Below, in pieces: positions 1 through 63,805 of a stretch of DNA of 64,000 bases. The DNA is taken from NCBI RefSeq assembly GCF_900116425.1, contig NZ_FPAS01000001.1, positions 1,188,085 to 1,252,084 of the forward strand. Reading direction: 5' to 3'. The position numbers were made by a program, and so were the translations under genes. Source of the DNA: Lishizhenia tianjinensis (GTDB lineage: Bacteria > Bacteroidota > Bacteroidia > Flavobacteriales_D > Crocinitomicaceae). The notes below the pieces were generated by a model. The model saw only the letters and a list, made by a program, of their open reading frames with translations. It ran no database searches and had not been told where the DNA came from. Numbering within the stretch: position 1 is the stretch's first letter; each line of letters opens with the position of its first letter.

Positions 1-3000
1 GTCTTTTCCTCTGCCGTCATTTTCACAAAATTTGAAAGGAACAATTGAGGGAAAACAGCAGATGTTGTTTGTTCTATACACCCGTGTGGGTAGCGAATTA
101 AATAAGAAAGTTGTTTCTCTAAATTCAAATGAGGGATGCGAGAAATCTCCACTTTGGCTGTATTCGTTCCTCGAATTCCAAAGGCAGAGTAAACGCTACT
201 CCAACTCGTATTTCCTTCTACAGATTGTACGATAGATTTAGTCATAGGTGGATTGGCAGGTCGCACTAAAATTTCAATTTCTTCGAATGATTTTTCCTTG
301 CCAGAAGTCACCTCTACTTTGAACTTACCAACGCCTAATTTATTCGCTACTTCATAGTCAAAGTAAACCGTCTGATCACCTTTCCCAGAAAAATTAACGC
401 TTTGCTGCGTACTTCCTTTAGCCTGCAAGAATTCATTAGAACTCACCTTAACATTAACCTGTTTGATCTTATCGCTCATGGCAATAACATTTACAGGAAC
501 TTTAATTTGTTCTTTAGGACCTAAAACACGCGGCAAGGTAGCTTGCACCATCAAAGGTTGTTTTACTTGTATTTCTTGTTCAGTAGAACCATATGCTCCT
601 TTATGTGCCGCTACTACCATCACGCGTACTGCACCAATGTAATTCGGCATATTTATTTTGTGCGTAGCTTCCTCCCCTTCCTCTAAATAAAAAGGTCCGA
701 TGTATTTTACAACAGGTTTAAATCGGTTGGCAGAAGCATCTTCTTTGTATACCAAACCTTCGTCACCACCTATGGCTAAGAGGGCCGCCATTTTACCTGT
801 TTGCGCACTCATTACATATTTATACATGTCCCACGTACGCACACTTAAAGCTTCTTTGCTGTAGAAGTTGGGCCATAAATCAGGTGTTTCAAATCGCGTT
901 AAAGAAAGCAAACCTTCATCCACAACAGCTAAGGTATAGGCCATAGCTTTCCCTTCTTTTTCTTTCACTTTAACGGTGTAATCGGATAAAGGCTGAACCG
1001 TTTCTGGAGCCTTAATTTCTGGGTATAAATGCGTTTCTGGATCTGAAACAGCAACTGGCGTTATACCATACATGCGTATGGGTAGAGCATTTTCGGTTTG
1101 ACCATGAGGCTGAACCAAGGTAGCACTAACATAGACATTGGGCGCCATATCCGCGGTTGTAGGTATTTCTATCACCGTAGATTTATCATCTGCTTCTTGC
1201 CAATAGGTTGCCAAAATTTGGTCACCCTTTTCTACCGTTACAAAGAATCTACCTATACCACCAGAAGGAACTGTAATTTTGGCTGTTTCTCCTACATCAT
1301 AGCTGTTCTTGTCTGTTTCTAAATTCAACATAGAAGCAGCCTCTGTATTGCCATTATCCTCTGCGTACCAACCGTAGTAATCTGCAAAGAAGCTTTGCAT
1401 AGCACTGTGACCAGATTTCTCATCTATCACGCGCAACAAGTATTTACCCCAACCTCTTTCTGGGAATTTTAAAGTGAAATTAGATTTACCATTTTTCACA
1501 TAAAAGCTTTCTGTTTTGATAAGGTCTGATGAGTTTCTCGAAACATAATTGGTCAATTCATTCTCTCCATTTCCTTCCCACCACCAGTTGTAAGAAACTT
1601 TATAAAGCTCTACTTTCACGTTGCGTGAAAGTGCATTACCATCTTCATCTACTGCAGCTATAGAAACGGCATGTTCGTCTTCTGAATTCAAGGCTGTTCT
1701 CCAATTTGATCCTCCCTCCATTTTGAGTCCAACATAGCTGGTGTAGGGTGAATACCTTTTAGAAGTGTAATCTTGACTAAAGTCCCCCCCTTCTTCAAAA
1801 ACTTTGGTGCTCCATCTGAGTTTTAACATTCCAGGCGCTTGTTCTGGTTTTTCCCAATCAAAGCTCACCCTTGCCCTACCATTGGCATCTGTTTTCACTT
1901 CTGCCAACAAAGGTTCGTCTAAGGCATATCTTTTCGATCTATCGTCGAATTGATAATTTTCATATCCTTTAAAAGTAGTTTGAAGGTTAAAAACATCTAA
2001 CTCAACCTTGGCTTTTAAGTTCGCTGCCGGAGCCCCGTATAACCAATCTGCCTGCAAGGTGGCGCTGCTTGCTGAATTGTGATTTAGGACATCTTCCAAA
2101 TCATAGTTGATACGAATACGATTCGGCTTAACGGTTTCTATTTTCAAATATTTATAGAAATCAGAATTCCCTACAATTACTTTTGCCTTCCATTTTCCAG
2201 TTGGAGAATCAGGCATGGTTGTAAAAGGAAAAGCATACATTCCCTTCACACCATTTGTAGAAACTTTCTTAGTAAACAATTTCCCCATGGGGTCATAAAC
2301 CTCCATTACAACGGGATGATTTTTAGGTAAAGTTGCCAACTTATCCTCCAAGGCAAAAGTTAAGAAAACCGTATCGCCCGGACGCCAAACTCCTCGTTCT
2401 CCGTAAATATGTCCTTTAATCCCTTTATCAATATGCTTCCCTCCTACTTCATACAAACTTGTAGAAAGCGCAGATCCATTATCTACACGTAAATAGCCGC
2501 GTTGCGTTCCTTTTTTAGCGATCAATAAATAGGCTTTTCCATCTAAATCAAGAGATAGTAAACCGTCGCTATTTGTTTCACCGGAACCTATGAGTTGATT
2601 TTGGAAATTGTAAGCCTCTACCAAAATTCCTTTTAAAGGATCAGTAGATCTTAGATCAGATATTGCAATTTCGTAGCGGTTATCTGCACCTTCTTTGGCG
2701 ATGATTCCAAAGTTGCCGGACAAGATATTTCGACTTACCTGACGGTTATAATATTTGTAATAACTATCCGTACATGGATTGTCTTTGTCTCTATAATCAT
2801 AGCCTCCCGTAAACCACCCGTCTACGTTCATGTAATATTCATTCGACTCATAGTTTTGTTCCTGACGCTCTAGAGGCTCTATGATTCCAGTAGAATCTCC
2901 ACACGGATATAAAGATTGGTGGCGTTCGAATGACATCATTACCCTGTAGATAGAACCCGGTTCTGAATCTATGTAACGGTTCAAGTCTATTTTAAAATTA

Positions 3001-4244
3001 TTCCATACCCCATAGTCTATAGGTTCTGAGGTTACCAAATCAACACTACCATCATATACCAATCTACCTACACGCGCCAATTCAGAACTTCCATTGTGCT
3101 GATTTTCTTGGAAAAATTGATTCACATTATCCTCAAAAACACGTAAGATTCTTAAGTTAACCGCCTTTAGGTTGATGGCTTTAAAAGGAAAGTCTATGGT
3201 TCCATTATTGGAAGGCATGATTACCCCATCACCAATTAATTCTAAAGCGGGTTTTTCTGTATTAAAGGTGAGAAGTTTACTAAATTCTTTGTTGAGCGGC
3301 ATCCCTTTGCTGTTGCGTATAGATCGGTTCACAACAATTCGCTCTTCCTCAAACATCTTTCCTTGTGGATAGGCAAGAATTTCATTTCCTTTTATACTTA
3401 ACCTTAGGTTTTTACTTGATGCTAAATACACCAATCCTTCTAAATTTTGATTCTTCTCTATAGGATCTGAACAAAGAATAGAAAAATGTAGTCCAGGTTC
3501 ATTCACCACTTTGGCTTGTAAAACTTTAAACTCGTTAATTGGCGGAACTTCCAACATCAGGTCATCTTCTACATCTACGCCCAAAGGTTCTCCTGTCCAA
3601 GATAAAAGTACTTTGCTTGACTTACCTCCACGTTTGATTCCTGTCAAAGTAAAAGTGTGCGATTTACTCGAATTATTATGTTCCCATATCACGTTTAAGC
3701 TTTTACCCTCTTGCGTAGCCGTAAAACAAGCCTCCACATCAGCCGGAGAGGCCATATCTCCCGTTCTTACACTTCCTTTTACATCTTGCTTGGAATAATC
3801 GCTTTCACTTTGGGTGTGAATCCCTGTAAAGTTTACCACTAAATTTTGGTGCATTACCATAAAACCAAAGTCTAAACTTTCATAGGCTTCTTCCACTTCC
3901 ATGAGTTCTTTTAGATAAAAGGTTCCCACATATTTTTGTCCACCTTTTAAGTTCTCAGAAGGTTTAAAAGCTATACTTTGTTTGTCTATCCAATAAGCGT
4001 CTCCTTCTATGCTGGGTTCAAAATCAAACAAGTCGTTGTCTATTTTCTCTCCAGGTTGAGCATTTTCTAAGGGAGCTACGAAAACTATTTTAATTTCGTC
4101 TTGATTAGAAATAACACCAGAGGTAAAGGCGTTGATATAATCGCTAAATCCTGGATTAACTTGTATTTTGGATAAATCTATTTCCTTATCAGAACAGGAA
4201 AAAAGAATAAATGTAGCTAGGAAGAAGGTGATAAACTTTTTCAT
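1..4244 (-). CDS. Alpha-2-macroglobulin family lipoprotein (C-terminus beyond window)
   Basis: About 1414 residues are visible; the frame stays open to the window edge, so the C-terminal part is missing. The start at 4244 gives a lipoprotein signal ending ILFSC, with lipid Cys17. Bacterial alpha-2-macroglobulins are large envelope proteins thought to trap attacking proteases. The bait-and-macroglobulin region is recognisable from VDEGLLSLTRF and the following WPNFYSKEAL stretch (about 0.8-1 kb from the left edge). Near the edge the protein reads YPHGCIEQTTS (about 60-92), which carries the CxEQ thioester-type motif with Cys at about residue 1389. So the window cuts the protein inside its thioester domain. 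It stands alone and is divergent from the next gene. The family assignment is firm; the target protease is unknown. Confidence 0.9.
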   Translation of the reverse strand, partial: MKKFITFFLATFILFSCSDKEIDLSKIQVNPGFSDYINAFTSGVISNQDEIKIVFVAPLENAQPGEKIDNDLFDFEPSIEGDAYWIDKQSIAFKPSENLKGGQKYVGTFYLKELMEVEEAYESLDFGFMVMHQNLVVNFTGIHTQSESDYSKQDVKGSVRTGDMASPADVEACFTATQEGKSLNVIWEHNNSSKSHTFTLTGIKRGGKSSKVLLSWTGEPLGVDVEDDLMLEVPPINEFKVLQAKVVNEPGLHFSILCSDPIEKNQNLEGLVYLASSKNLRLSIKGNEILAYPQGKMFEEERIVVNRSIRNSKGMPLNKEFSKLLTFNTEKPALELIGDGVIMPSNNGTIDFPFKAINLKAVNLRILRVFEDNVNQFFQENQHNGSSELARVGRLVYDGSVDLVTSEPIDYGVWNNFKIDLNRYIDSEPGSIYRVMMSFERHQSLYPCGDSTGIIEPLERQEQNYESNEYYMNVDGWFTGGYDYRDKDNPCTDSYYKYYNRQVSRNILSGNFGIIAKEGADNRYEIAISDLRSTDPLKGILVEAYNFQNQLIGSGETNSDGLLSLDLDGKAYLLIAKKGTQRGYLRVDNGSALSTSLYEVGGKHIDKGIKGHIYGERGVWRPGDTVFLTFALEDKLATLPKNHPVVMEVYDPMGKLFTKKVSTNGVKGMYAFPFTTMPDSPTGKWKAKVIVGNSDFYKYLKIETVKPNRIRINYDLEDVLNHNSASSATLQADWLYGAPAANLKAKVELDVFNLQTTFKGYENYQFDDRSKRYALDEPLLAEVKTDANGRARVSFDWEKPEQAPGMLKLRWSTKVFEEGGDFSQDYTSKRYSPYTSYVGLKMEGGSNWRTALNSEDEHAVSIAAVDEDGNALSRNVKVELYKVSYNWWWEGNGENELTNYVSRNSSDLIKTESFYVKNGKSNFTLKFPERGWGKYLLRVIDEKSGHSAMQSFFADYYGWYAEDNGNTEAASMLNLETDKNSYDVGETAKITVPSGGIGRFFVTVEKGDQILATYWQEADDKSTVIEIPTTADMAPNVYVSATLVQPHGQTENALPIRMYGITPVAVSDPETHLYPEIKAPETVQPLSDYTVKVKEKEGKAMAYTLAVVDEGLLSLTRFETPDLWPNFYSKEALSVRTWDMYKYVMSAQTGKMAALLAIGGDEGLVYKEDASANRFKPVVKYIGPFYLEEGEEATHKINMPNYIGAVRVMVVAAHKGAYGSTEQEIQVKQPLMVQATLPRVLGPKEQIKVPVNVIAMSDKIKQVNVKVSSNEFLQAKGSTQQSVNFSGKGDQTVYFDYEVANKLGVGKFKVEVTSGKEKSFEEIEILVRPANPPMTKSIVQSVEGNTSWSSVYSAFGIRGTNTAKVEISRIPHLNLEKQLSYLIRYPHGCIEQTTSAVFPQLFLSNFVKMTAEEK

Positions 4245-14340: not shown

Positions 14341-14434
14341 CAATTTATCTATCAGGAATTGGCACCATGCTCATCGTTTGAGCGGGTTGCCAGAGGGTCA
14401 TAGAGCCTGTCTCTCACCTCTTCTACATAAATCG
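14341..14434 (-). promoter_or_regulatory. SAM-I-type riboswitch aptamer
   Basis: Read on the minus strand, the segment contains the hallmark blocks of the SAM-I clan in order: AGAGGTGAGAGA, CAGGCTCTATGACCCTC, GGCAACC (14391-14385), a GCTC/GAGC stem, GGTGCCAATTCC (14366-14355) and AGATAA. P1 is formed by CGATTTAT (14434-14427) and ATAAATTG (14348-14341). Only about five bases lie between the P3 strand and the final AGATAA block, so the usual P4 hairpin seems to be missing. It lies between a consensus promoter and metX, consistent with SAM feedback on the methionine operon. Confidence 0.9.
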
Positions 14435-38042: not shown

Positions 38043-38999
38043 TTAAAACGAAGGACAACTAATCATCCTGAATTTTGGAGATTTCTTTTTACACGGAATC
38101 GTTAACCCAAGAGAAACTTCATGTGCTCCTCCAGAAACTCCGTTATTTAATTGAGAAACGGTAATATCATAACTATAGCCCACTTTAAAATCTTCGAGCT
38201 CTATACCTACCAATAAGATAAAGGCGTCTCTATTCCTTAAGAAGGCACCCGCCGTAAAAGCTGAATACTTTACATAAGTACCCAAGTTTAATTGCTGAAA
38301 GCCTTGTTGGTAAGAATATAATATGGTTGGCATAATGGTAGTTACATTCTGGTATTGCGACTTAGACCCTAAAGGAATGGTAGCAGAAGTATGCGCCGTA
38401 ATACGTATAGGCATCTTGCTTTCACCTACAATCACAGATTCATTAGGTCTGTTTAAGTGCTTCGCTGCAACTCCTACATTAAAGTTTTCATTAAATAAAA
38501 TTACCCCAGCAGAAGCATCAAAAAACCCTCTACTTCCTCCCCTAACAACATCTTGAGTTGCGTAAATGAATCCTCTTCTATCATCTATTTGATCGGCGAA
38601 AGAAAGTTTAGACCAATCCAAAAACTTCTGGTTCCAGGTTGCTTGTGCACCCAAGAGCGCTGTCCATTTTCTATTGATGGGCAAGTGGTAAGAATAAATC
38701 AAGGATAAATGTGAATGATTTAGGGTATTACCAGCCATTCTATCATGTACTGCCGTAACTCCGAACCCTCCACTTATATTGTCGAAATACTGATCGTATG
38801 AAGCTGCAAAACTTACAAAATTCCCTGTAAGTGATGGCCATTGATTTCTATAGTTTGTGGCTATCCTAGGACAACCATTTGTTCCTGCGAAGGCGGGATT
38901 TAAATACAATGGATTAGCATAGAATTGCGAAAATTCTAAATCCTGGGCTACCACCAAGGAGCTAACAATTGTTGCGATGAATACAATAATTTTTCTCAT
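38043..38999 (-). CDS. PorP/SprF family type IX secretion outer-membrane protein
   Basis: The 318-aa protein has a signal peptide ending SLVVAQ, followed by the family hallmark DLEFSQFYANPLYLNPAFAG and RNQWPSL. It then shows the repeated barrel strands, including GGFGVTAVHDRMAG and RKWTALLGAQATW. PorP/SprF proteins bind the secretion machinery or help anchor partner adhesins at the cell surface. It is the third gene of an operon after an ECF sigma factor and a trans-envelope protein whose barrel is of the same kind, four bases downstream of that gene. Confidence 0.92.
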   Translation of the reverse strand: MRKIIVFIATIVSSLVVAQDLEFSQFYANPLYLNPAFAGTNGCPRIATNYRNQWPSLTGNFVSFAASYDQYFDNISGGFGVTAVHDRMAGNTLNHSHLSLIYSYHLPINRKWTALLGAQATWNQKFLDWSKLSFADQIDDRRGFIYATQDVVRGGSRGFFDASAGVILFNENFNVGVAAKHLNRPNESVIVGESKMPIRITAHTSATIPLGSKSQYQNVTTIMPTILYSYQQGFQQLNLGTYVKYSAFTAGAFLRNRDAFILLVGIELEDFKVGYSYDITVSQLNNGVSGGAHEVSLGLTIPCKKKSPKFRMISCPSF

Positions 39000-39003
39000 T
39001 TCC

Positions 39004-40740
39004 TTACATGTTTAAAATGCGTCGTGCATTTCGATTTGGTTTTAATTTATAGCGTAGGGTTAATTGATGACACAAATATTTTGCGTCGTCTATCTGACTT
39101 GTAGAGTAGTCAGCATTATAAATGAACCTTACTCTTTTCGTGTCTACCCCTAACGAAAGAGCTGGGTCAAATTCATTACTTATAGCAGCACCAAAATGAA
39201 ATCCTTTAAAATTCACATTGGCTCCTACCCACAATTCTCTCCAACTTCCTTGCTGTTGAAAAACCGCGTAGGTACTCAACACCGTTTTTTGTGAAAGTGA
39301 TTTATAATCTGTTCCAATTTGTGCTTGATAAAGCTGTTTTGCTTTGAAATCTTGCGTGAGATCGTTGGAATAAATATTATTGAAGTGTCTTCCAACATTA
39401 TCTATACTCGCGCCAAGGTAAAACCATGGTGTATTCAGTAAAAATCCAGCTTGAACATCTCTATACCATAAAGATTGACCGGTTGGTGTTTGGCCTTCTT
39501 CAAAAAACTGTACGGGTCTTCCTCTGTCTAACTCTATCACAGAGCCCATTACTAATTTGCTGGCATTTATTTGCTTGTTTCCAAACCTAAAACGCAGGGC
39601 TGGTTCAAAAGAGAATTTCTCACCTATACTTATTTTAGGTGAATATGTAAATGCTCCTTCCATGGTTTGAACAGCACCATTGTTGATGATGTTATGGTTA
39701 AGGTCAACCCCTATCCCTCCTTTTAACTCGTAGACGTAAGTATCAAAGGAAAATCTATTTGAAATTTGATTAGAAGCGGTTCCTAAATATTGTCCACGAG
39801 TTGCCCATTGAAACTTAGGTGCAACTTGTGTACCTACCATTCCGGGGTTCACTGTAAAACCTGTTGCAGACGGCAAACTGTAATATTGATCTCTGTAATT
39901 TTTAAGCGCCACGGGGTTGTTCATGGTACGTTTTACATCTCTTCCCAATTCATACAAGGCTCTTTTCAGCGTGAACGCTCTTTTGCTAGCCTCAGATTTA
40001 GAACTCACATTGCTTTGATGAACACTGTTATTTCCATGGTTTCCTGAACTTGAAAGATTCTCAGGCTCTTCCCCTTGAATTTGATTTATAGGATTGGTTC
40101 CAGAATTCTCTATGGCAGCAACAATTTTATCTAATCGTTCTTGGAAAATTTGTTGATTACTAGTGTTAAAAAGCTCCTCATTCTCAAAAATGGAAGTCTT
40201 TAAGATATTCTCTTCAAAATCCTTCTTAGTACGAGCAAGTGCTAAATTTTCTTCAAATTGAGACAGATCGAAAACCTGGTTAGAATTGGCCATAAAGTTA
40301 TTGGCCTCTCCTTCCGAAGTTACACCACCCATAGATAAAGCACTTGTCGCATCAAAAGAAGAAAAAGAATTCGTCGAAGTTGAATTCATTCCAATTTCAC
40401 CTTCAGAAATACTACTTAAATCTAATTGCTTTTCAGCGTATAAGGATTGATTATCCTTTCCGTAAAATAGCGCAAGGCCTGCACCTAAACCGAGAACAAA
40501 TACACTCAGAGCTCCCCAAAGTATAGGAGCTGCTTTTCTTTTGTTTTTAATTAATGCTTGTGTATCGAATTGAACAGGTTCTGCTTCAACTCCAGCCATT
40601 TTCCAGGCGTCCAAGTCAACAGAAAGTTCGGGATGCACGGCGATAAAATCCATCAACATCTTCTCTTGCGCGGGAGAAAGGTTTCCCTCGTGCAATTCAA
40701 ACATCCACTTATCTATGTTTTGGATAGAAGGTTCGCTCAT
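39004..40740 (-). CDS. Trans-envelope anti-sigma-like protein with PorP/SprF-like barrel
   Basis: The 578-aa protein has four parts. Residues 1-70 are an acidic helical segment (SIQNIDKWMFELHEGNLSP) like the cytoplasmic domain of Bacteroidota anti-sigma factors. Residues 71-94 form one membrane helix (APILWGALSVFVLGLGAG). Residues 95-280 are Ser/Asn/Glu-rich, low-complexity and long enough to cross the periplasm. Residues about 280-578 are barrel-like and align with PorP/SprF (DQYYSLPSATGFTVNPGMVG, KGGIGVDLNHN, LWYRDVQAGFLLNTPWFYLGASIDN). The gene overlaps the sigma gene by ATGA. The layout matches the dual membrane-spanning anti-sigma factors (Dma) reported in Bacteroides thetaiotaomicron; sensing of T9SS parts is my inference. 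Confidence 0.78.
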   Translation of the reverse strand: MSEPSIQNIDKWMFELHEGNLSPAQEKMLMDFIAVHPELSVDLDAWKMAGVEAEPVQFDTQALIKNKRKAAPILWGALSVFVLGLGAGLALFYGKDNQSLYAEKQLDLSSISEGEIGMNSTSTNSFSSFDATSALSMGGVTSEGEANNFMANSNQVFDLSQFEENLALARTKKDFEENILKTSIFENEELFNTSNQQIFQERLDKIVAAIENSGTNPINQIQGEEPENLSSSGNHGNNSVHQSNVSSKSEASKRAFTLKRALYELGRDVKRTMNNPVALKNYRDQYYSLPSATGFTVNPGMVGTQVAPKFQWATRGQYLGTASNQISNRFSFDTYVYELKGGIGVDLNHNIINNGAVQTMEGAFTYSPKISIGEKFSFEPALRFRFGNKQINASKLVMGSVIELDRGRPVQFFEEGQTPTGQSLWYRDVQAGFLLNTPWFYLGASIDNVGRHFNNIYSNDLTQDFKAKQLYQAQIGTDYKSLSQKTVLSTYAVFQQQGSWRELWVGANVNFKGFHFGAAISNEFDPALSLGVDTKRVRFIYNADYSTSQIDDAKYLCHQLTLRYKLKPNRNARRILNM

Positions 40741-41219
40741 TGAAATATTGTTAAATCCTTTAATTGTTTTTGCATCTTTTTTCTCGCTCTGTACAAATAC
40801 ACTTTTACTTGAGAATCAGATAAAGACAACATATCACCAATCTCTTGGTAATTATAGCCCTCCAAATCTCGCAGTAACACGATACTCTTTTGAATAGGTG
40901 GAAGTAATTCCAAAACCTTTTCAACGATCTCCTTTGCTTCAAAACTGTGACTCTCTACTCCCCGTTCTGGTAAAGTTTCTGAGTTATACACAGTTCGTCC
41001 TTTTTTCTTTGCAAAGTTGATTAACGTATTGTGTGCAGTTGTAAACATCCAAGACTTGGCCTTAACGGCTTCTATCTTTTTTCTGTTTTTCCAAAGCTTT
41101 TCGAAAACATCTTGTACAATATCATTGCTATCAGCCTCAACCCTGAGGTATTTCAACACATAGCCGTATAACCGACCTGCGTGCTCATTAACAACTTCAT
41201 TATACTCCGATCTCGTCAA
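40737..41219 (-). CDS. ECF-type RNA polymerase sigma factor
   Basis: The 160-aa protein has region 2 (SNDIVQDVFEKLWKNR, SWMFTTAHNTLINFAKK) and region 4 (LLPPIQKSIVLLRDLEGYNYQEIGDMLSLS, then VKVYLYRARKKMQK), the usual helix-turn-helix of sigma70 ECF factors. The start codon is TTG at 41219; no ATG fits the frame nearby. Its last four bases overlap the next gene (ATGA), which encodes the likely anti-sigma partner. A TAACTTTA box at 41260-41267 on the minus strand could be its promoter. Confidence 0.92.
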   Translation of the reverse strand: MTRSEYNEVVNEHAGRLYGYVLKYLRVEADSNDIVQDVFEKLWKNRKKIEAVKAKSWMFTTAHNTLINFAKKKGRTVYNSETLPERGVESHSFEAKEIVEKVLELLPPIQKSIVLLRDLEGYNYQEIGDMLSLSDSQVKVYLYRARKKMQKQLKDLTIFQ

Positions 41220-57953: not shown

Positions 57954-58760
57954 TTGAATGAAAGTGTGAAAAGATTTAACTACATCCATGACGGAAACAT
58001 GCTAGAAGCATTGCTCTACCCTTTTTTGTTACTGCTTATTTTGTGGAGTATTTATTTAATGGATTTTACTTTTCATCTCGATTTGTATAAATACGGTGTA
58101 CTTCCTCAAACCATGGAAGGACTCAAAGGAATATTCTTTATGCCTTTTATACATTCACAGCGCGATTTCACGCACATTGTAAATAACTCCCTGCCCACCT
58201 TTGTTTTATTGGCTGCCTTAATTTACTACTACAGAAAAATTGCGCTTTATGTAGTTCTTGCCATTTGGCTAGGAGGTGGTTTCTTATTGTGGAATCTAGC
58301 ACCGAGCACAGGCAGTTATCATATAGGAATTTCTGGTGTTATCTATGGACTTTTCTCTTTCTTGTTTGTAAGTGGAATCTTTAGGAAAAGAACCCCCATG
58401 TGGGCCATTTCACTTTTTGTCATCTTTTTATACGGTAGTCTTATTTGGGGTATATTCCCAACCGAAAAACCCATATCATGGGAAGGTCATTTATTTGGTT
58501 TAATTGTAGGAATAGTTGCAGCAATAGCCGCACGGAATCAAGGACCAAAACCTCTTAAATATTGGTATGAAATTGAACAGGAAATGGGAATAGAGCCTCC
58601 TGACTTAGAAGGCATGTATAAAGAGAATCTGCGCAGAGCACAGGAGCGTGAAGAAATGCGAAAAGCGCAAGAGGAAGAACAAATCAAGGCGCAAAATGTA
58701 GTCTATTACTACATACCTAAACAACCTGCGGAAGATAAAGATCAAAACAAAGAGCAGTAG
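57954..58760 (+). CDS. Rhomboid family intramembrane serine protease
   Basis: The 268-aa protein has about six to seven helices. The catalytic Ser is in HIGISGVIYGLFSFLF (GxSG) and the catalytic His in WEGHLFGLIVGIVAAI (GHxxG), with the HIVNNSLPTFVL motif of helix 2. The C-terminal about 70 residues are charged, coiled-coil-like and rich in Glu/Lys. I start it at TTG 57954, 12 bases after AGGAGG; a GTG at 57966 is the alternative. It cleaves membrane-anchored substrates, unknown here. Confidence 0.88.
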   Translation: MNESVKRFNYIHDGNMLEALLYPFLLLLILWSIYLMDFTFHLDLYKYGVLPQTMEGLKGIFFMPFIHSQRDFTHIVNNSLPTFVLLAALIYYYRKIALYVVLAIWLGGGFLLWNLAPSTGSYHIGISGVIYGLFSFLFVSGIFRKRTPMWAISLFVIFLYGSLIWGIFPTEKPISWEGHLFGLIVGIVAAIAARNQGPKPLKYWYEIEQEMGIEPPDLEGMYKENLRRAQEREEMRKAQEEEQIKAQNVVYYYIPKQPAEDKDQNKEQ

Positions 58761-59193
58761 CTTTAGAACACTCGGCCCACGATTCAAAGGGAAATTCCAA
58801 AACAACCAAACCTCCAGTTGACAACATTAGTGGTTCATCTAAAAAATACATCGCTAAATCAGAAATACCATTATTGTGCCCGATAATCATCATGTCATCT
58901 CCCCCTTTTTGTTCCCAAACAAACTTGAGCATTTCGGTCCTAGAAGGCAAATACAATTCATTATGCAAATGCAACTGATGTGAAGAAAGTGAGTTTTTAA
59001 TACGCGCATAAGTATGTTGCGTGCGTTGAGCGGTTGAACAATGGACGGTAGGAATGTTATAATTTTTAGACGAGAAATAGTCGGACAACAAAGCACATTG
59101 TTTGATGCCTTTTTCCATCAAATCACGGTCAAAATCATCTTGATTTTTTCCTGGTTTTTGGGTTTTCGCATGACGTAATAAAAATAATTTCAT
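58717..59193 (-). CDS. SixA-like histidine phosphatase
   Basis: The 158-aa phosphatase has RHAKTQKPGKNQDDFDRDL (catalytic His in the RHG-type RHAK motif), the STAQRTQHTY arginine, and MMIIGHNNGISDL with the second His. SixA in E. coli dephosphorylates histidine-containing phosphotransfer proteins. Its 3' end overlaps the convergent rhomboid gene by 44 bases, so transcripts are partly antisense to each other. Confidence 0.88.
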   Translation of the reverse strand: MKLFLLRHAKTQKPGKNQDDFDRDLMEKGIKQCALLSDYFSSKNYNIPTVHCSTAQRTQHTYARIKNSLSSHQLHLHNELYLPSRTEMLKFVWEQKGGDDMMIIGHNNGISDLAMYFLDEPLMLSTGGLVVLEFPFESWAECSKATALCFDLYLPQVV

Positions 59194-59343
59194 AAATCTT
59201 CACTTTTGTTCCAACCTTATAAAGGTAAACAACGTTCATGAAAATGAAGAGAAACCCAAGAACTATTAAAAGAATTACATTCTCTTTTGTAAAATTTGAT
59301 TAATTTGCAGATGCTAAACAAAATCAAAGGAATTAACAATTAT

Positions 59344-59919
59344 ATGCACATTGATACCGAATTATTGATTGCATGCGCTAAAAATGATCGCAAGGCTCAG
59401 AAGAAGCTTTACGAGGCGTGTTATGTATTCCTTATGCCCAAATGTTTACAGTATCACAAAAATGAAGAGGACGCTCGTGCCATCTTCAACAAAGGTTTCT
59501 ATAAAATACTTAAAAATCTAAGCAAGATAGACTTAGAAGAAGTAATGTTTGCTGCATGGTCTAAACGTATCATGGCAAACACATTAATTGATGACTATAG
59601 AAAGAATAAAAATTACAAAACCAACATCAACATAAAAGAAAACGATCAGGAATTAGACTATCACGCAAGTTCGAGTAGCAACGATGCTTTAAATGCATTT
59701 GGCCAAAAGGACATTATGCAGTTGTTAGAATATTTAAAGCCTGCTGCAAAACAAGTTTTCTTAATGTACGTTGTAGAAGGATATAACCATAGAGAGATTG
59801 CCGAAATGTTAAACATGTCTGAAGGAACATCCAAATGGCATTTGAGTACGGCAAGAAAAGAATTAAAAGAAAGATTAGAAAAATTAACTGAAGCAGAGTT
59901 AAGAACAAAAGTTATATGA
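59344..59919 (+). CDS. ECF-type RNA polymerase sigma factor, second cassette
   Basis: The 191-aa protein starts at 59344 (MHIDTELLIACAKNDRKAQKKLY), a typical ECF opening; in-frame ATG codons at 59311 and 59296 are alternatives. Region 2 is DARAIFNKGFYKILKNLSKID and AAWSKRIMANTLIDDYRKNK; region 4 is LKPAAKQVFLMYVVEGYNHREIAEMLNMSEGTSKWHLSTARKELKE. It overlaps the next gene by ATGA. A TTAATTTG sequence (59300-59307) is the best promoter candidate. Confidence 0.9.
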   Translation: MHIDTELLIACAKNDRKAQKKLYEACYVFLMPKCLQYHKNEEDARAIFNKGFYKILKNLSKIDLEEVMFAAWSKRIMANTLIDDYRKNKNYKTNINIKENDQELDYHASSSSNDALNAFGQKDIMQLLEYLKPAAKQVFLMYVVEGYNHREIAEMLNMSEGTSKWHLSTARKELKERLEKLTEAELRTKVI

Positions 59920-61259
59920 GTTTAACCGATAAAGATATAGATCAGTTGTTCCGAGATGCTGCCAACTCGGCCCCACAAGTGGAGTTTAAAGAAGCTTACT
60001 GGGACGAGATGAACGCATTTTTAGATCAAGAAGAGAAAGGAAAGAGAGGCATCTACTCTATGCTTTCTGTTGGTATACTTGCTTTGATTGGCATTGGATC
60101 ACTCTTGTTGATTCCTAACCAAAACAAGTATAGCGATGGTACAGTAGCAGAGCAAGTAGACGCACTTATTGCTACACCTCAAAATGTAGTAGCTATGAAT
60201 GCTGCTCAACAAAATTCAACTTCGGCTGTTAAGAAAAATAATGCCCAAACAACATCAACTTTGGCAATCACGAAAACAGCGAGTTCATCCAATGAGGAAA
60301 CAGCTGTGGAAAGCAGTGAAAATGTTGTTTTGAATACAAAATCAAAGAAGACCAGCGTATTCAATACAAACGCTTTAACAGATCAAATGCTTGCTAGCTC
60401 TGCAATAGCAAAAGAAAACACAACTGTTGTAAATGTTAAAGACGAGAAAGCAGTAGAAGAAACAACTCAAGTAGTAAAGAATAAAGAGCTTTCAACTCCA
60501 ACGCAGAATGCGCAACCAATTTTATTGAAGGCGACTTTAGATCCTTTTGCAAACCTGAGTAAGAAGATAGATAGATTAAGTGTGAAAGAACCTGGTTCTT
60601 TAGCAAGTTCATTTGGGAATTCTTCAGCAAGCTCTCTGATAGATTTTAAAAATATCCAACGTTTAAAGGATAGACTATACATCGAGTTAGGAGCAGGTAT
60701 TTCTGACAATTACAATGACGCGATAGCTGGAAGGTCATTTGTTTACAATGGAGCTTTGAATTATGAATTTAGAAAGAATTGGTTTAGAGTGAGAACAGGT
60801 GTTGGTGTAAACATTACAACCCAATCTAACATTACTTATACTACTTATGCTAAGATTTATGATTTCGGAAGTAGAAACTCTTCAAATGAGTTGGTTTACA
60901 AAGAACTATACGACTTATATCTACCAATAGAAATTGGTGCAAGCTTTAATAAGGTGAGTTTTGGAGTTGGATTTAAATACAATTTCTTAAACCACTCAAG
61001 AGCAGAATTTAGAACTTACCAAGACGGTGCCTTAGAAGAAGAAGGTGTTTACTACGGATTAACAGAAGGATTGAAACAAAATACTTCAAGTGCATATTTC
61101 TTCGTAGAAAGAAACCTTTTCAATAGAGTTGATTTAGGAATCAAAATGGGTACCTACTTAAATTCTAGAGCAGCCTTAACTGAACAGTTTGACATGGTTG
61201 GTCAAGACATTAATCCTAAATACGGTTTTGTTTACCTTAAGTATAACTTTAGAAAATAA
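59916..61259 (+). CDS. Trans-envelope anti-sigma-like protein with C-terminal barrel
   Basis: The 447-aa protein repeats the layout of the other cassette. Residues 1-45 are acidic and helical (DIDQLFRDAANSAPQVEFKEAYWDEM). Residues 46-66 form one membrane helix (IYSMLSVGILALIGIGSLLLI). Residues 67-250 are Ser/Thr/Asn/Lys-rich and unstructured. Residues about 253-447 are an outer-membrane barrel with RLYIELGAGISDN, NWFRVRTGVGVN, VSFGVGFKYN and a final YLKYNFRK. This matches dual membrane-spanning anti-sigma factors (Dma) known from Bacteroides thetaiotaomicron. The barrel is not PorP-like. The next gene starts within its stop codon. Confidence 0.8.
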   Translation: MSLTDKDIDQLFRDAANSAPQVEFKEAYWDEMNAFLDQEEKGKRGIYSMLSVGILALIGIGSLLLIPNQNKYSDGTVAEQVDALIATPQNVVAMNAAQQNSTSAVKKNNAQTTSTLAITKTASSSNEETAVESSENVVLNTKSKKTSVFNTNALTDQMLASSAIAKENTTVVNVKDEKAVEETTQVVKNKELSTPTQNAQPILLKATLDPFANLSKKIDRLSVKEPGSLASSFGNSSASSLIDFKNIQRLKDRLYIELGAGISDNYNDAIAGRSFVYNGALNYEFRKNWFRVRTGVGVNITTQSNITYTTYAKIYDFGSRNSSNELVYKELYDLYLPIEIGASFNKVSFGVGFKYNFLNHSRAEFRTYQDGALEEEGVYYGLTEGLKQNTSSAYFFVERNLFNRVDLGIKMGTYLNSRAALTEQFDMVGQDINPKYGFVYLKYNFRK

Positions 61260-62320
61260 TGAGTAGATTTTCTACAATATTGACACTTTCATTTTTACTT
61301 GTTTTATCAGCATGTAAGAAAGACGAAATGCCAGAATTGGTAGAGTCTAACGAACCCGTATTCATGGTCAAAGGTAAAATTGGTCAAGAAGAAATTAACA
61401 TCGTTGCAGGAGACGACAACCAATACATGTATACTGGTTTTGACGAGCGCAATGGTGTAAATCTATTCTATGGAGATATTAGCAACAACAACTCTTCGTT
61501 TAAATTGACCATACATGATGGTAATTTAGACAATGACAATTTAGAATTGATAACAAATCAACCGCAATTTGCATTTACTCGAAACGCGGTTACACCTACT
61601 TTTCAATTTGCCATAGATTCTTTTGCCAACAATGTTAAAATAGATGCCATAGATTGGTATGTAAATGGTGATTATTATTCATCTAATTCAATTACCCTTT
61701 ATGAGCATGGTTTATTTAACATCTGTGCCGAAGTAACTTTTGTAGACGGAGAAGTGGCGAATCTTTGTAATGACGTAATATTAGGTTATAAAAAACATGC
61801 TATTGGTCAACCCGTTCACATCGTTGGATCTACGGGAAGATTAAGTGTATTTAACAATACCATCTACCCTATAGACAATGTTGAATGGTACGTGAATGGA
61901 GTTTTGTTCTCAGATGCAATTGAACTTTCAACATCAGCCTTTACTGGAAGAGTTCCAATCACGGTTATTGTTAACTACAGTAATGGTGTTCAGCGCACAA
62001 AATCTATCATGGTCGATTTTGATTTGGAAGGTAAATTCATTCAAGATTTTTCATTCGCCGAAAATATTAATCCTCTAAACAACGATTACAGTTTAGATTT
62101 ACGTTTCGAAATAGATGGTGAAACATGGATAAGTAACATTCCTGAAAACGACAGTTTATTTGTTGAAATTAGCAAATACGAAAAGTACAAAGAGAATGTT
62201 GATGGTATTCCTGTTTCTATAGCCAATGGCTTGATCAATTGTAAACTTAAACGTTTATCAGATGGCATGATTAGAGATGCTGAGTTGGATTTAACTTTTG
62301 GGTTCCCTCAAAACTTTTAA
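61259..62320 (+). CDS. Lipoprotein of the second sigma cassette, 353 aa
   Basis: It has a lipoprotein signal with the lipobox LVLSAC (Cys19). The mature protein is beta-rich and seems to contain two PKD/Ig-like modules, marked by the repeated IDAIDWYVNGDYYSS and IDNVEWYVNGVLFSD. It begins with a one-base overlap of the anti-sigma-like gene (TAATG) and ends three bases before the T9SS cargo gene, so it must be part of the same transcript. Its role could be to present or sense a ligand near the barrel. Confidence 0.75.
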   Translation: MSRFSTILTLSFLLVLSACKKDEMPELVESNEPVFMVKGKIGQEEINIVAGDDNQYMYTGFDERNGVNLFYGDISNNNSSFKLTIHDGNLDNDNLELITNQPQFAFTRNAVTPTFQFAIDSFANNVKIDAIDWYVNGDYYSSNSITLYEHGLFNICAEVTFVDGEVANLCNDVILGYKKHAIGQPVHIVGSTGRLSVFNNTIYPIDNVEWYVNGVLFSDAIELSTSAFTGRVPITVIVNYSNGVQRTKSIMVDFDLEGKFIQDFSFAENINPLNNDYSLDLRFEIDGETWISNIPENDSLFVEISKYEKYKENVDGIPVSIANGLINCKLKRLSDGMIRDAELDLTFGFPQNF

Positions 62321-62323
62321 AAA

Positions 62324-63400
62324 ATGAAATCTACGCTAACTCTACTTGGCATACTTTTTATAAGCGGAGTTAGTTCCGCTCAGATTTCATTAACATCTTC
62401 AGATTTTCAGTCTTCACCGGGTGCAGAATATTACTCGAGTGCAAATACAAATGTTGACTTCACTTCAACTGGAGCCAACTATACTTGGGATTTCAGTAAT
62501 TTAAACGAGGTGAGTCAAGATACTATCAATTACAACTCCCTTACTCAAGCAAGCTTATTCATTCAAGCCGCGTATGGTATTTTTGCTCCACCAGCATATC
62601 AAGCAAATTACTTTCAGGAAAATACAGATTTTACCTTGAGCAATATACCTTCAACTGTACTTCCTATAAACATTGATAGGGTTGATAACTTTATAAAGGT
62701 AGAAAACACTCAAATTGCAAAGGTAGGTTACGGAATAAGTGTGCAAGGACAAGCCATTCCTTTTCCTTCAGATACTATTGAAAGGCTTTATAAACTTCCG
62801 TTAAATTATGGGGATGTGGATTCTTCAAGAGCTTACACCTCCTTTGATTTAAATCCTATTTACGACGCTCAACTTAGGCAATACATACAACATTACTCCG
62901 AAGTTGACGGATATGGCAACATTAGCACACCCTATGGTAGCTTTCCCTGTTTGCGCATTCATCATAGAATTGTAGAACTTGATTCTGTTTATATATCTCT
63001 AAATGGAGCGGCAGGGGCATGGTATGAACTTCCATTACCCACCAAACACATTTATGAATGGTGGACCAACAACGAAGACATCGCAATCTTAAGAATAGAA
63101 ACCACCGAAAACTTTGGGATACAAACCGTTTCTAAAACTGAATACAAAGACAATATATCTGTAGGCACGGAGGAGGCCTCACCTTTTACTGAGTTTTACA
63201 TTTATCCCAATCCTACTAGAGATGGGTTATTCTTCTCACATCAAGTGCGACATTTAACGCTGAGAAATACAGCTGGTCAAATTGTACTGACCAAAGATTT
63301 CACGACATACTTGAATGTTTCTAAACTTCCTACTGGCGCGTATCTATTAGAGGTTGAAATCGACGGTGAAACGAAACAAGAACGTCTCCTTATTCAATAA
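62324..63400 (+). CDS. Secreted protein with T9SS type A sorting domain, second cassette
   Basis: The 358-aa protein has a signal peptide ending SGVSSAQ, a beta-rich middle part that I do not recognise (about 25-280), and a type A sorting domain starting EFYIYPNPTRDGLFF and ending GAYLLEVEIDGETKQERLLIQ. It is exported by the type IX system. As the fourth gene of the sigma cassette it is a candidate surface or extracellular ligand of the upstream sensor. Confidence 0.85.
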   Translation: MKSTLTLLGILFISGVSSAQISLTSSDFQSSPGAEYYSSANTNVDFTSTGANYTWDFSNLNEVSQDTINYNSLTQASLFIQAAYGIFAPPAYQANYFQENTDFTLSNIPSTVLPINIDRVDNFIKVENTQIAKVGYGISVQGQAIPFPSDTIERLYKLPLNYGDVDSSRAYTSFDLNPIYDAQLRQYIQHYSEVDGYGNISTPYGSFPCLRIHHRIVELDSVYISLNGAAGAWYELPLPTKHIYEWWTNNEDIAILRIETTENFGIQTVSKTEYKDNISVGTEEASPFTEFYIYPNPTRDGLFFSHQVRHLTLRNTAGQIVLTKDFTTYLNVSKLPTGAYLLEVEIDGETKQERLLIQ

Positions 63401-63435: not shown

Positions 63436-63803
63436 AAAGGCAAACTAGTCTATCGCTGTTCCAAATGGAAGAGAGGAAAGTCTGGGCAGTAAAGAGCACC
63501 GTACTTCCTAACGGGAAGGGTTCGTTTTAACGAATACAGAAAGTGCCGCAGAAAATAAACTACCTCGTTTACGAGGAAAAGGTGAAAAGGCGAGGTAAGA
63601 GCTCACCGCGCTTGTGGCGACATGAGTGGCAGGGTAAACCTTACGGACTGAAAGATCATGTATACCGAGGCGCACAGAAATGTGCTAAGAATTGCTCGTT
63701 CGACTCGGAGGGTAGATCGATAGATGCTAAAGGTGACTTTAGTACTGGATAAATGATAGACACCTTTTTAAGGACACAGAACCCGGCTTATGGTTTGCCT
63801 TTT
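63436..63803 (+). ncRNA. rnpB: RNase P RNA, bacterial type A
   Basis: The catalytic RNA of tRNA 5' processing. P1 is formed by AAAGGCAAAC (63436-63445) and GTTTGCCTTT (63793-63802). Conserved blocks in order are GAGAGGAAAGTCTGGGC (63471-63487), ACAGAAAGTGCCGC, GGTAAGAGCTCACCGCGC, GGTAAACCTTACGG, and the P4 partner ACAGAACCCGGCTTATGG (63776-63793). A T run follows as terminator. An open frame at 63543-63752 lies wholly inside this RNA and is not a gene. Confidence 0.97.
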
Positions 63804-63805
63804 TT

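Follow-up and report, generated by a model that had tools for sequence, protein, structure and literature searches.

In the genome of Lishizhenia tianjinensis (Flavobacteriales, Crocinitomicaceae), four genes at positions 59344-63400 on the plus strand of the 64,000-nucleotide stretch analysed here (the window) encode, in this order, an extracytoplasmic function (ECF) sigma factor, a trans-envelope anti-sigma, a lipoprotein and a cargo protein of the type IX secretion system (T9SS). Our best explanation, to which we give a probability of about two in three, is that this operon is an autoregulated sigma/anti-sigma switch of the dual membrane-spanning anti-sigma (Dma) type that controls the secreted surface proteome, that is, T9SS cargo and lipoproteins. 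The question addressed is how Bacteroidota match T9SS cargo production to the state of the cell surface.

In the proposed mechanism, the N-terminal segment of the anti-sigma would retain the sigma in the cytoplasm, and the anti-sigma is predicted to continue through one inner-membrane helix and a disordered linker across the periplasm to an eight-strand outer-membrane barrel. The co-transcribed lipoprotein would work with this barrel as a co-sensor or gate, and perturbation of the outer-membrane end would free the sigma, which would then transcribe from CCAACC-N16-CGTT promoters at its own operon, at unlinked T9SS cargo genes and at genes for surface lipoproteins. The T9SS protein of the operon would most likely be one of the outputs, possibly with feedback on the sensor.

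The operon and its products

The tight packing that had been read from the sequence was confirmed at the level of coordinates: the sigma gene (59344-59919) and the anti-sigma gene (59916-61259) share an ATGA overlap at 59916-59919, the anti-sigma and lipoprotein genes (61259-62320) share a TAATG overlap at 61259, and a gap of 3 bases separates the lipoprotein from the cargo gene (62320 versus 62324). These overlaps, together with a single conserved ECF-type promoter before the sigma gene (59211-59236, plus strand), support a single operon. No small RNA or riboswitch was found in it at gathering thresholds, and the next element downstream is rnpB.

The first product is an ECF sigma factor (Pfam Sigma70_r4_2, 3.8e-14, and Sigma70_r2, 4.2e-06; NCBIfam agrees), for which an in-frame TTG at 59296 is a possible alternative start. 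The last one (62324-63400, 358 aa) is a type A T9SS cargo protein with a Por_Secre_tail sorting domain (63200-63394; 2e-08, over the Pfam cut-off), and a profile search against solved structures with this protein retrieved sorting domains only. Both assignments agree with the original prediction. The anti-sigma and the lipoprotein matched no significant Pfam or NCBIfam family of their own.

The anti-sigma (447 aa) has the Dma architecture, to which we liken it by predicted layout: a cognate ECF sigma gene directly 5', a short cytoplasmic part that leads into a single inner-membrane helix, a long disordered tether and a C-terminal outer-membrane barrel. Its putative sigma-binding segment (residues 1-45; 59916-60050) contains the conserved residues W29, E31 and L36, and a hydropathy peak at residue 48 marks the membrane helix (about residues 48-66; 60057-60113). 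A low-complexity linker follows (about residues 67-250; 60114-60665), and in a structure model built from a 4-sequence alignment (mean predicted local distance difference test score, pLDDT, 51) residues 16-249 are unstructured, with pLDDT below 50. The C-terminal part (residues 251-447; 60666-61256) would be a small OmpA/OmpX-like barrel, as residues 251-445 were modelled with about 8 strands at pLDDT near 80 and gave Foldseek matches to OmpA, OmpX and Ail (TMt about 0.55-0.62). The small barrel predicted earlier gains further support from the family alignment, in which 9 of 23 members match OMP_b-brl, the window protein itself lying below Pfam detection. A profile search of solved structures with the anti-sigma returned nothing beyond chance.

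We also considered surface signalling of the FecI/FecR kind, which was discarded because no FecR match was found by Pfam in the window anti-sigma or its 23 aligned members and because the neighbouring genes encode a lipoprotein and a T9SS protein, not a TonB-dependent transducer. As a side observation, the part of the anti-sigma before the membrane helix has about 112-196 residues in 21 loci (L084, L085, L089, L090, L092, L093, L151-L155, L172, L173, L115, L180, L182, L186, L187, L189, L190 and L192), versus about 45 in the window, and in L084 and L089 it appeared by eye to consist of several tandem copies of a D-AF...Y..YW...L motif, perhaps several sigma-binding modules in series.

Conservation of the gene order

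When 240 family genomes were searched by profile, the lipoprotein was matched in 88, the anti-sigma (E 1e-8) in 121, some of the matches in genus g22 being weak, and the cargo (E 1e-40) in 188. A separate search for related loci with the cargo protein as query gave 11 named loci, the nearest ones in metagenome-assembled genomes of Crocinitomicaceae and Flavobacteriales. The lipoprotein gene lies directly after the anti-sigma gene in 88 of 90 places and directly before the cargo gene in 70 of 90, as expected from the earlier proposal that the four genes form one module with conserved synteny of the last two genes with the sigma pair. No intact copy of the lipoprotein was seen where the anti-sigma is missing. 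In 16 places it is the lipoprotein that is missing, and the cargo gene comes directly after that of the anti-sigma.

We read 93 family loci directly, two of which repeat places already counted (L115=L176 and L116=L193), and 63 are quartets in the order of the window. The other 30 comprise 12 with sigma, anti-sigma and cargo but no lipoprotein, 8 trios without cargo, 9 cargo genes alone and 1 locus cut by a contig end. The four-gene packing, recurring in the same order in 63/93 loci, is thus more than chance, and the dependent unit is the sigma/anti-sigma/lipoprotein trio, the cargo having a wider occurrence of its own.

Part of this synteny is inherited neighbourhood, that is, vertical, as the two flanking genes are kept too: a divergent gene (58717-59193, minus strand), which we take to encode a SixA-like phosphatase, lies upstream in 57 of the 63 quartets, and rnpB, the RNase P RNA gene (63437-63805, plus strand; RNA family search), lies downstream in 54. 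Both are conserved neighbours placed outside the switch. One could therefore hold that the sigma pair, the lipoprotein and the cargo have separate functions and merely sit in a conserved order between sixA and rnpB, and in L076 and L078 the cargo stands alone between these two. The overlapping starts of the genes, the survival of the quartet where both flanks differ (L027 and L031), the dependence of the lipoprotein on the anti-sigma and the single promoter for all genes, common to other T9SS cargo genes, make this very improbable. In most family loci rnpB lies 12-60 bp behind the cargo gene. It is probably transcribed from a promoter of its own, because the TATCTTTG box near 63425 matches the sigma-A -7 consensus (TAnnTTTG) as given in the available text of PMC9723704. 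Elsewhere in the window there is an S-adenosylmethionine riboswitch (14342-14433, minus strand; RF00162, 71.4 bits).

The promoter and its candidate regulon

Of 83 family loci, a figure that counts two places twice, 82 have CCAACC upstream of the sigma gene, followed after exactly 16 bases by CGTT or CGTC; the first box reads CCAACG in a few and CCAACT once, and the exception is L145. The sequence of the spacer varies freely among these loci, as is expected for the -35/-10 pair of an ECF sigma. The window contains one match (59211-59236) versus 0.06 expected by chance, and we propose this single promoter as the autoregulatory site of the sigma.

The L. tianjinensis genome has nine strict CCAACC-N16-CGTT sites versus four for the reversed pattern. 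One is the sigma's own, one precedes rpoD and one is inside a gene, while six lie 30-143 bp upstream of other genes with a T9SS C-terminal sorting domain (T9SS-CTD), encoding proteins of 349 aa (143 bp), 626 aa (83 bp), 1064 aa (30 bp), 1189 aa (52 bp), 1176 aa (55 bp) and 1082 aa (50 bp). With 119 sorting domains in this genome, finding six of eight non-self sites before such genes has a chance of about 7e-15 at random, or 1e-7 if 4% of downstream genes carry the domain. Four genes of an array on contig C6 (1064-1189 aa) carry the sigma promoter, three in the strict form and one in a relaxed form (CCAACG). This tandem array (L262-L263; G000:C6:20400-48700) holds about eight T9SS-CTD paralogs of about 1060-1190 aa that are 60-70% identical where compared, and the two that were scanned both have FN3 domains. 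No T9SS machinery gene was recognised after the nine strict sites, the only ones considered for this comparison with SigP-type control.

Furthermore, we went through every one of the 20 non-self strict sites of four trio-bearing relatives. T9SS-CTD genes follow 7 of them at 32-136 bp; 4 lie upstream of genes judged lipoprotein-like by eye, 1 upstream of another ECF sigma gene and 1 upstream of a gene for a secreted-looking protein of 256 aa, the rest being inside genes or uncertain. Orthologous targets (28-36% identity) keep the site at comparable distances: 143/136 bp for the pair of 349/344 aa, 83/96/102 bp for the set of 626/618/602 aa and 39/46 bp for lipoproteins of 530/522 aa. In seven trio-less genomes of genus g2, the first listed site precedes a T9SS gene in 0/7 and lies inside a gene in 6. 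As a separate observation, one strict site (L266; at 5150 on the minus strand of G000:C3:257000-265000) is followed after 96 bp by rpoD, the primary sigma gene, which was identified by its sigma regions 1.2, 2, 3 and 4.

Together with the inherited neighbourhood described above, several observations weigh against a switch of this kind. The link between this sigma and the motif consists of the position before the sigma gene and of co-conservation. The motif was not found before the sigma in trio loci outside the family (L095 and L108 among them), nor in front of relocated or lone cargo genes. Across the family its excess over the reversed-pattern control is modest, with a ratio of 1.28 in 88 genomes that drops to 1.14 (p 0.06) once the self site is left out. 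Four incomplete genomes of genus g9 (G067, G069, G071 and G028), in which no Dma or lipoprotein was found, keep the motif beside orthologous T9SS genes, and rpoD does not recur among the 20 non-self sites of the relatives, so that its regulation by this sigma would be a lead only. As for the lipoprotein, the strict C-x-K-[DE][DE] export signal occurs in just 10 of 74 rows of its alignment, most others having C-x-K with one acidic residue or none (in a rough scan that takes the first Cys of each row), and its structure model is poor (pLDDT 55).

Some of these data would also fit another ECF sigma of the genome as the reader of the motif, with the present sigma simply lying downstream of such a promoter. 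The genome has 22 over-cut-off matches of the region-4 family, the g9 genomes retain the motif near T9SS genes, and G063 has a site 187 bp upstream of a different ECF sigma gene (L314). We regard this as improbable, given that among the ECF sigma genes of the L. tianjinensis genome a strict site occurs only at this one, that the motif accompanies this sigma at nearly all of its family loci and that motif counts fall below the control in the trio-less genus g22, a comparison confounded by genus.

The lipoprotein as a possible partner and the cargo as a probable output

The two related modules noted earlier in the lipoprotein, residues 103-178 (61565-61792) and 184-255 (61808-62023), are indeed homologous (hhalign probability 97, E 3.5e-11). 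Its lipid-attachment residue, Cys19, is followed by KKDE, and the resulting N-terminus, CKKDEM, conforms to the surface-export signal C-X-K-(D/E)2-X reported for lipidated proteins in the consulted text of PMC5080379, so that the lipoprotein is probably exported to the cell surface. Searches of solved structures gave weak matches to Ig-like and surface-glycan-binding proteins (by profile, and by fold on the poor model), from which we draw no function. An identity as NigD was dropped since no NigD Pfam match was found in 22 members at E up to 1.

In 57 loci holding all five genes, for which the distances are crude and saturated, the barrel and the lipoprotein evolve fastest, and the two covary beyond sixA and the sigma (partial r 0.53, with 0/199 permutations as high). 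After the same controls, the barrel and the cargo do not (partial r 0.04, 55/199 permutations as high), and covariation between the lipoprotein and the cargo is weak (0.26). This pattern points to the lipoprotein as the partner of the barrel and to the cargo as an output. The lipoprotein may be a co-sensor, given that its intact form was seen only together with the anti-sigma, that its N-terminus resembles an export signal and that it covaries with the barrel. This leaves plausible one half of the earlier proposal of a ligand and a co-sensor; the other half, the T9SS protein as ligand, appears less likely than a role as output.

The cargo family occurs in 188/240 genomes, many of them without the other three genes, the cargo does not covary with the barrel, and the promoter precedes six other T9SS cargo genes; for these reasons we consider the operon cargo more likely an output than a ligand. 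A model in which the barrel binds the T9SS protein as its ligand, with the lipoprotein as co-receptor, and the switch measures T9SS export as PorA feeds PorXY-SigP, would account for the four genes being kept together and for the anti-sigma and cargo staying adjacent without the lipoprotein in 12/93 loci (16 places in the 240 family genomes), and it has the PorA precedent (PMC7712824, as excerpted) and the recruitment of unrelated cargo in other families (see below) in its favour. Nevertheless, the cargo extends far beyond the trio, the trio does without it in 8/93 loci, and, with six more cargo genes behind the same promoter, a role as output is the simpler reading, so that we think this ligand model unlikely. 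Within the preferred switch, it is conceivable, though we hold it with less than even confidence, that the circuit is dedicated to surveillance of the type IX secreted surface: the barrel together with a surface lipoprotein would sense the condition of the outer membrane or of T9SS export and, through one molecule that spans the whole envelope, set the level of T9SS cargo, including the giant FN3 adhesin-like array, and cargo may feed back on the sensor.

Outside the family, 22 of 399 genomes sampled at the level of the order matched the lipoprotein profile, and the loci read were 18 plus two more (L095 and L108). In all 20 the lipoprotein follows a gene of the anti-sigma family, with the sigma upstream except at contig ends. 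A T9SS-sorted protein is encoded directly beside the trio on the same strand in 15/20, being directly upstream of the sigma at 11-128 bp in 11 and directly downstream of the lipoprotein in 4 (L236, L242, L240 and L241; the L240 neighbour has a CHU_C type B domain and that of L241 was assigned by 72% identity to it). At least four unrelated groups can be told apart among the bodies of these neighbours, none of them orthologous to the cargo of the window. By comparison, the sorting-domain profile gave one hit in 20 stretches that surround other ECF sigmas of the L. tianjinensis genome. Each of ten genomes searched has at least 79 Por_Secre_tail matches, perhaps 4-5% of genes. At 0.1 per locus, the chance of 15/20 is about 1e-11, and that of 7/11 genera 2e-5 (by our own grouping, with rough independence). 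Unrelated T9SS cargo thus appears to have been repeatedly recruited to the same trio across Flavobacteriales.

The first cassette of the window

The window carries another sigma-linked cassette (38043-41219, minus strand), consisting of an ECF sigma, a protein of 578 aa that ends in a PorP/SprF barrel, and a second PorP/SprF protein encoded separately. Its sigma/barrel pair (39004-41219, minus strand) resembles the second cassette in layout, and the original prediction had seen in this two unrelated barrels on the same chassis. This was not supported at the sequence level: homology of the two cassettes was rejected, since profile comparison gave a probability of 2 and neither the N-terminal parts nor the barrels align, and the sigmas share general ECF similarity only. 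The architecture alone is alike, and it recurs in the same genome with other C-terminal parts (L129, with a weak outer-membrane barrel match, and L126, with a CHU_C domain), which suggests a modular layout and not a shared homologous chassis. In L126 (G000:C7:86000-90500), the gene at 1937-3022 on the minus strand lies directly after an ECF sigma gene and encodes an anti-sigma-like protein with an N-terminal helix, one membrane helix and a C-terminal CHU_C type B T9SS sorting domain (4.5e-14); L130 may be similar. Because PorP-like barrels bind type B cargo (PMC9143113, in the part consulted), the first cassette could, by analogy, sense T9SS type B export.

Comparison with known systems

The operon supplies a sigma, a single-protein wire from the outer membrane to the cytoplasm, a lipoprotein that is a likely co-sensor at the surface, and a promoter code that can be read; its regulon, signal and wiring thereby become testable in any cultured member of the family. 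If our explanation is true, Dma systems, which are known in gut Bacteroides for vesicle control and envelope stress, would also govern secreted cargo in environmental relatives.

The closest likeness is to Dma1/Das1 and Dma2/Das2 of Bacteroides thetaiotaomicron, which share the upstream ECF sigma, the N-terminal sigma-binding part, one transmembrane helix, a long disordered tether and a C-terminal barrel. According to the sections of PMC13088901 at hand, loss of the anti-sigma raises its own operon (neighbours in the operon rise by log2 2.5-6.0 upon dma2 deletion), the Das sigma is called ECF21, and the outputs are NigD1, changes in polysaccharide utilization loci and vesicles. These published Dma systems support sigma release and autoregulation as we propose them here, where the dedicated lipoprotein has no NigD match and a T9SS cargo regulon is predicted. 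A similar layout, that is, a predicted periplasm-spanning anti-sigma with a C-terminal outer-membrane barrel and a thought role in envelope stress, is described for the Phocaeicola vulgatus pair M0N98_03761/03760, which answers envelope stress, and for an oxidative-stress pair of B. fragilis; the regulon there, as far as the excerpt of PMC9308784 goes, includes O-antigen and NigD-like genes, not T9SS cargo.

With regard to T9SS, PorXY-SigP and PorA also tie an ECF sigma to this system (PMC7712824, PMC4800418, PMC8265659, in extracts). SigP is described there as acting on T9SS machinery genes via a two-component system (PMC4800418, PMC8265659), whereas here no machinery gene was found under the motif and no PorXY in the operon. 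PorA is a T9SS-CTD protein that feeds sigma signalling in Porphyromonas gingivalis (PMC7712824) and shows that T9SS cargo can act in such signalling, and feedback of cargo on the sensor would accordingly be possible. The SM6 promoters of Flavobacterium psychrophilum are likewise of the ECF type, have a CGT box in the -10 region and lie beside an ECF/anti-sigma pair and T9SS genes, but the targets named in the available text are T9SS components (GldN, PorU), not cargo, and no -35 element is shown in that text (PMC9723704). We found no paper in the open-licence literature on a Dma system with a T9SS-cargo regulon. The Dma architecture is already published, and what is new in the present system is its predicted regulon, its lipoprotein partner and its invariant promoter.

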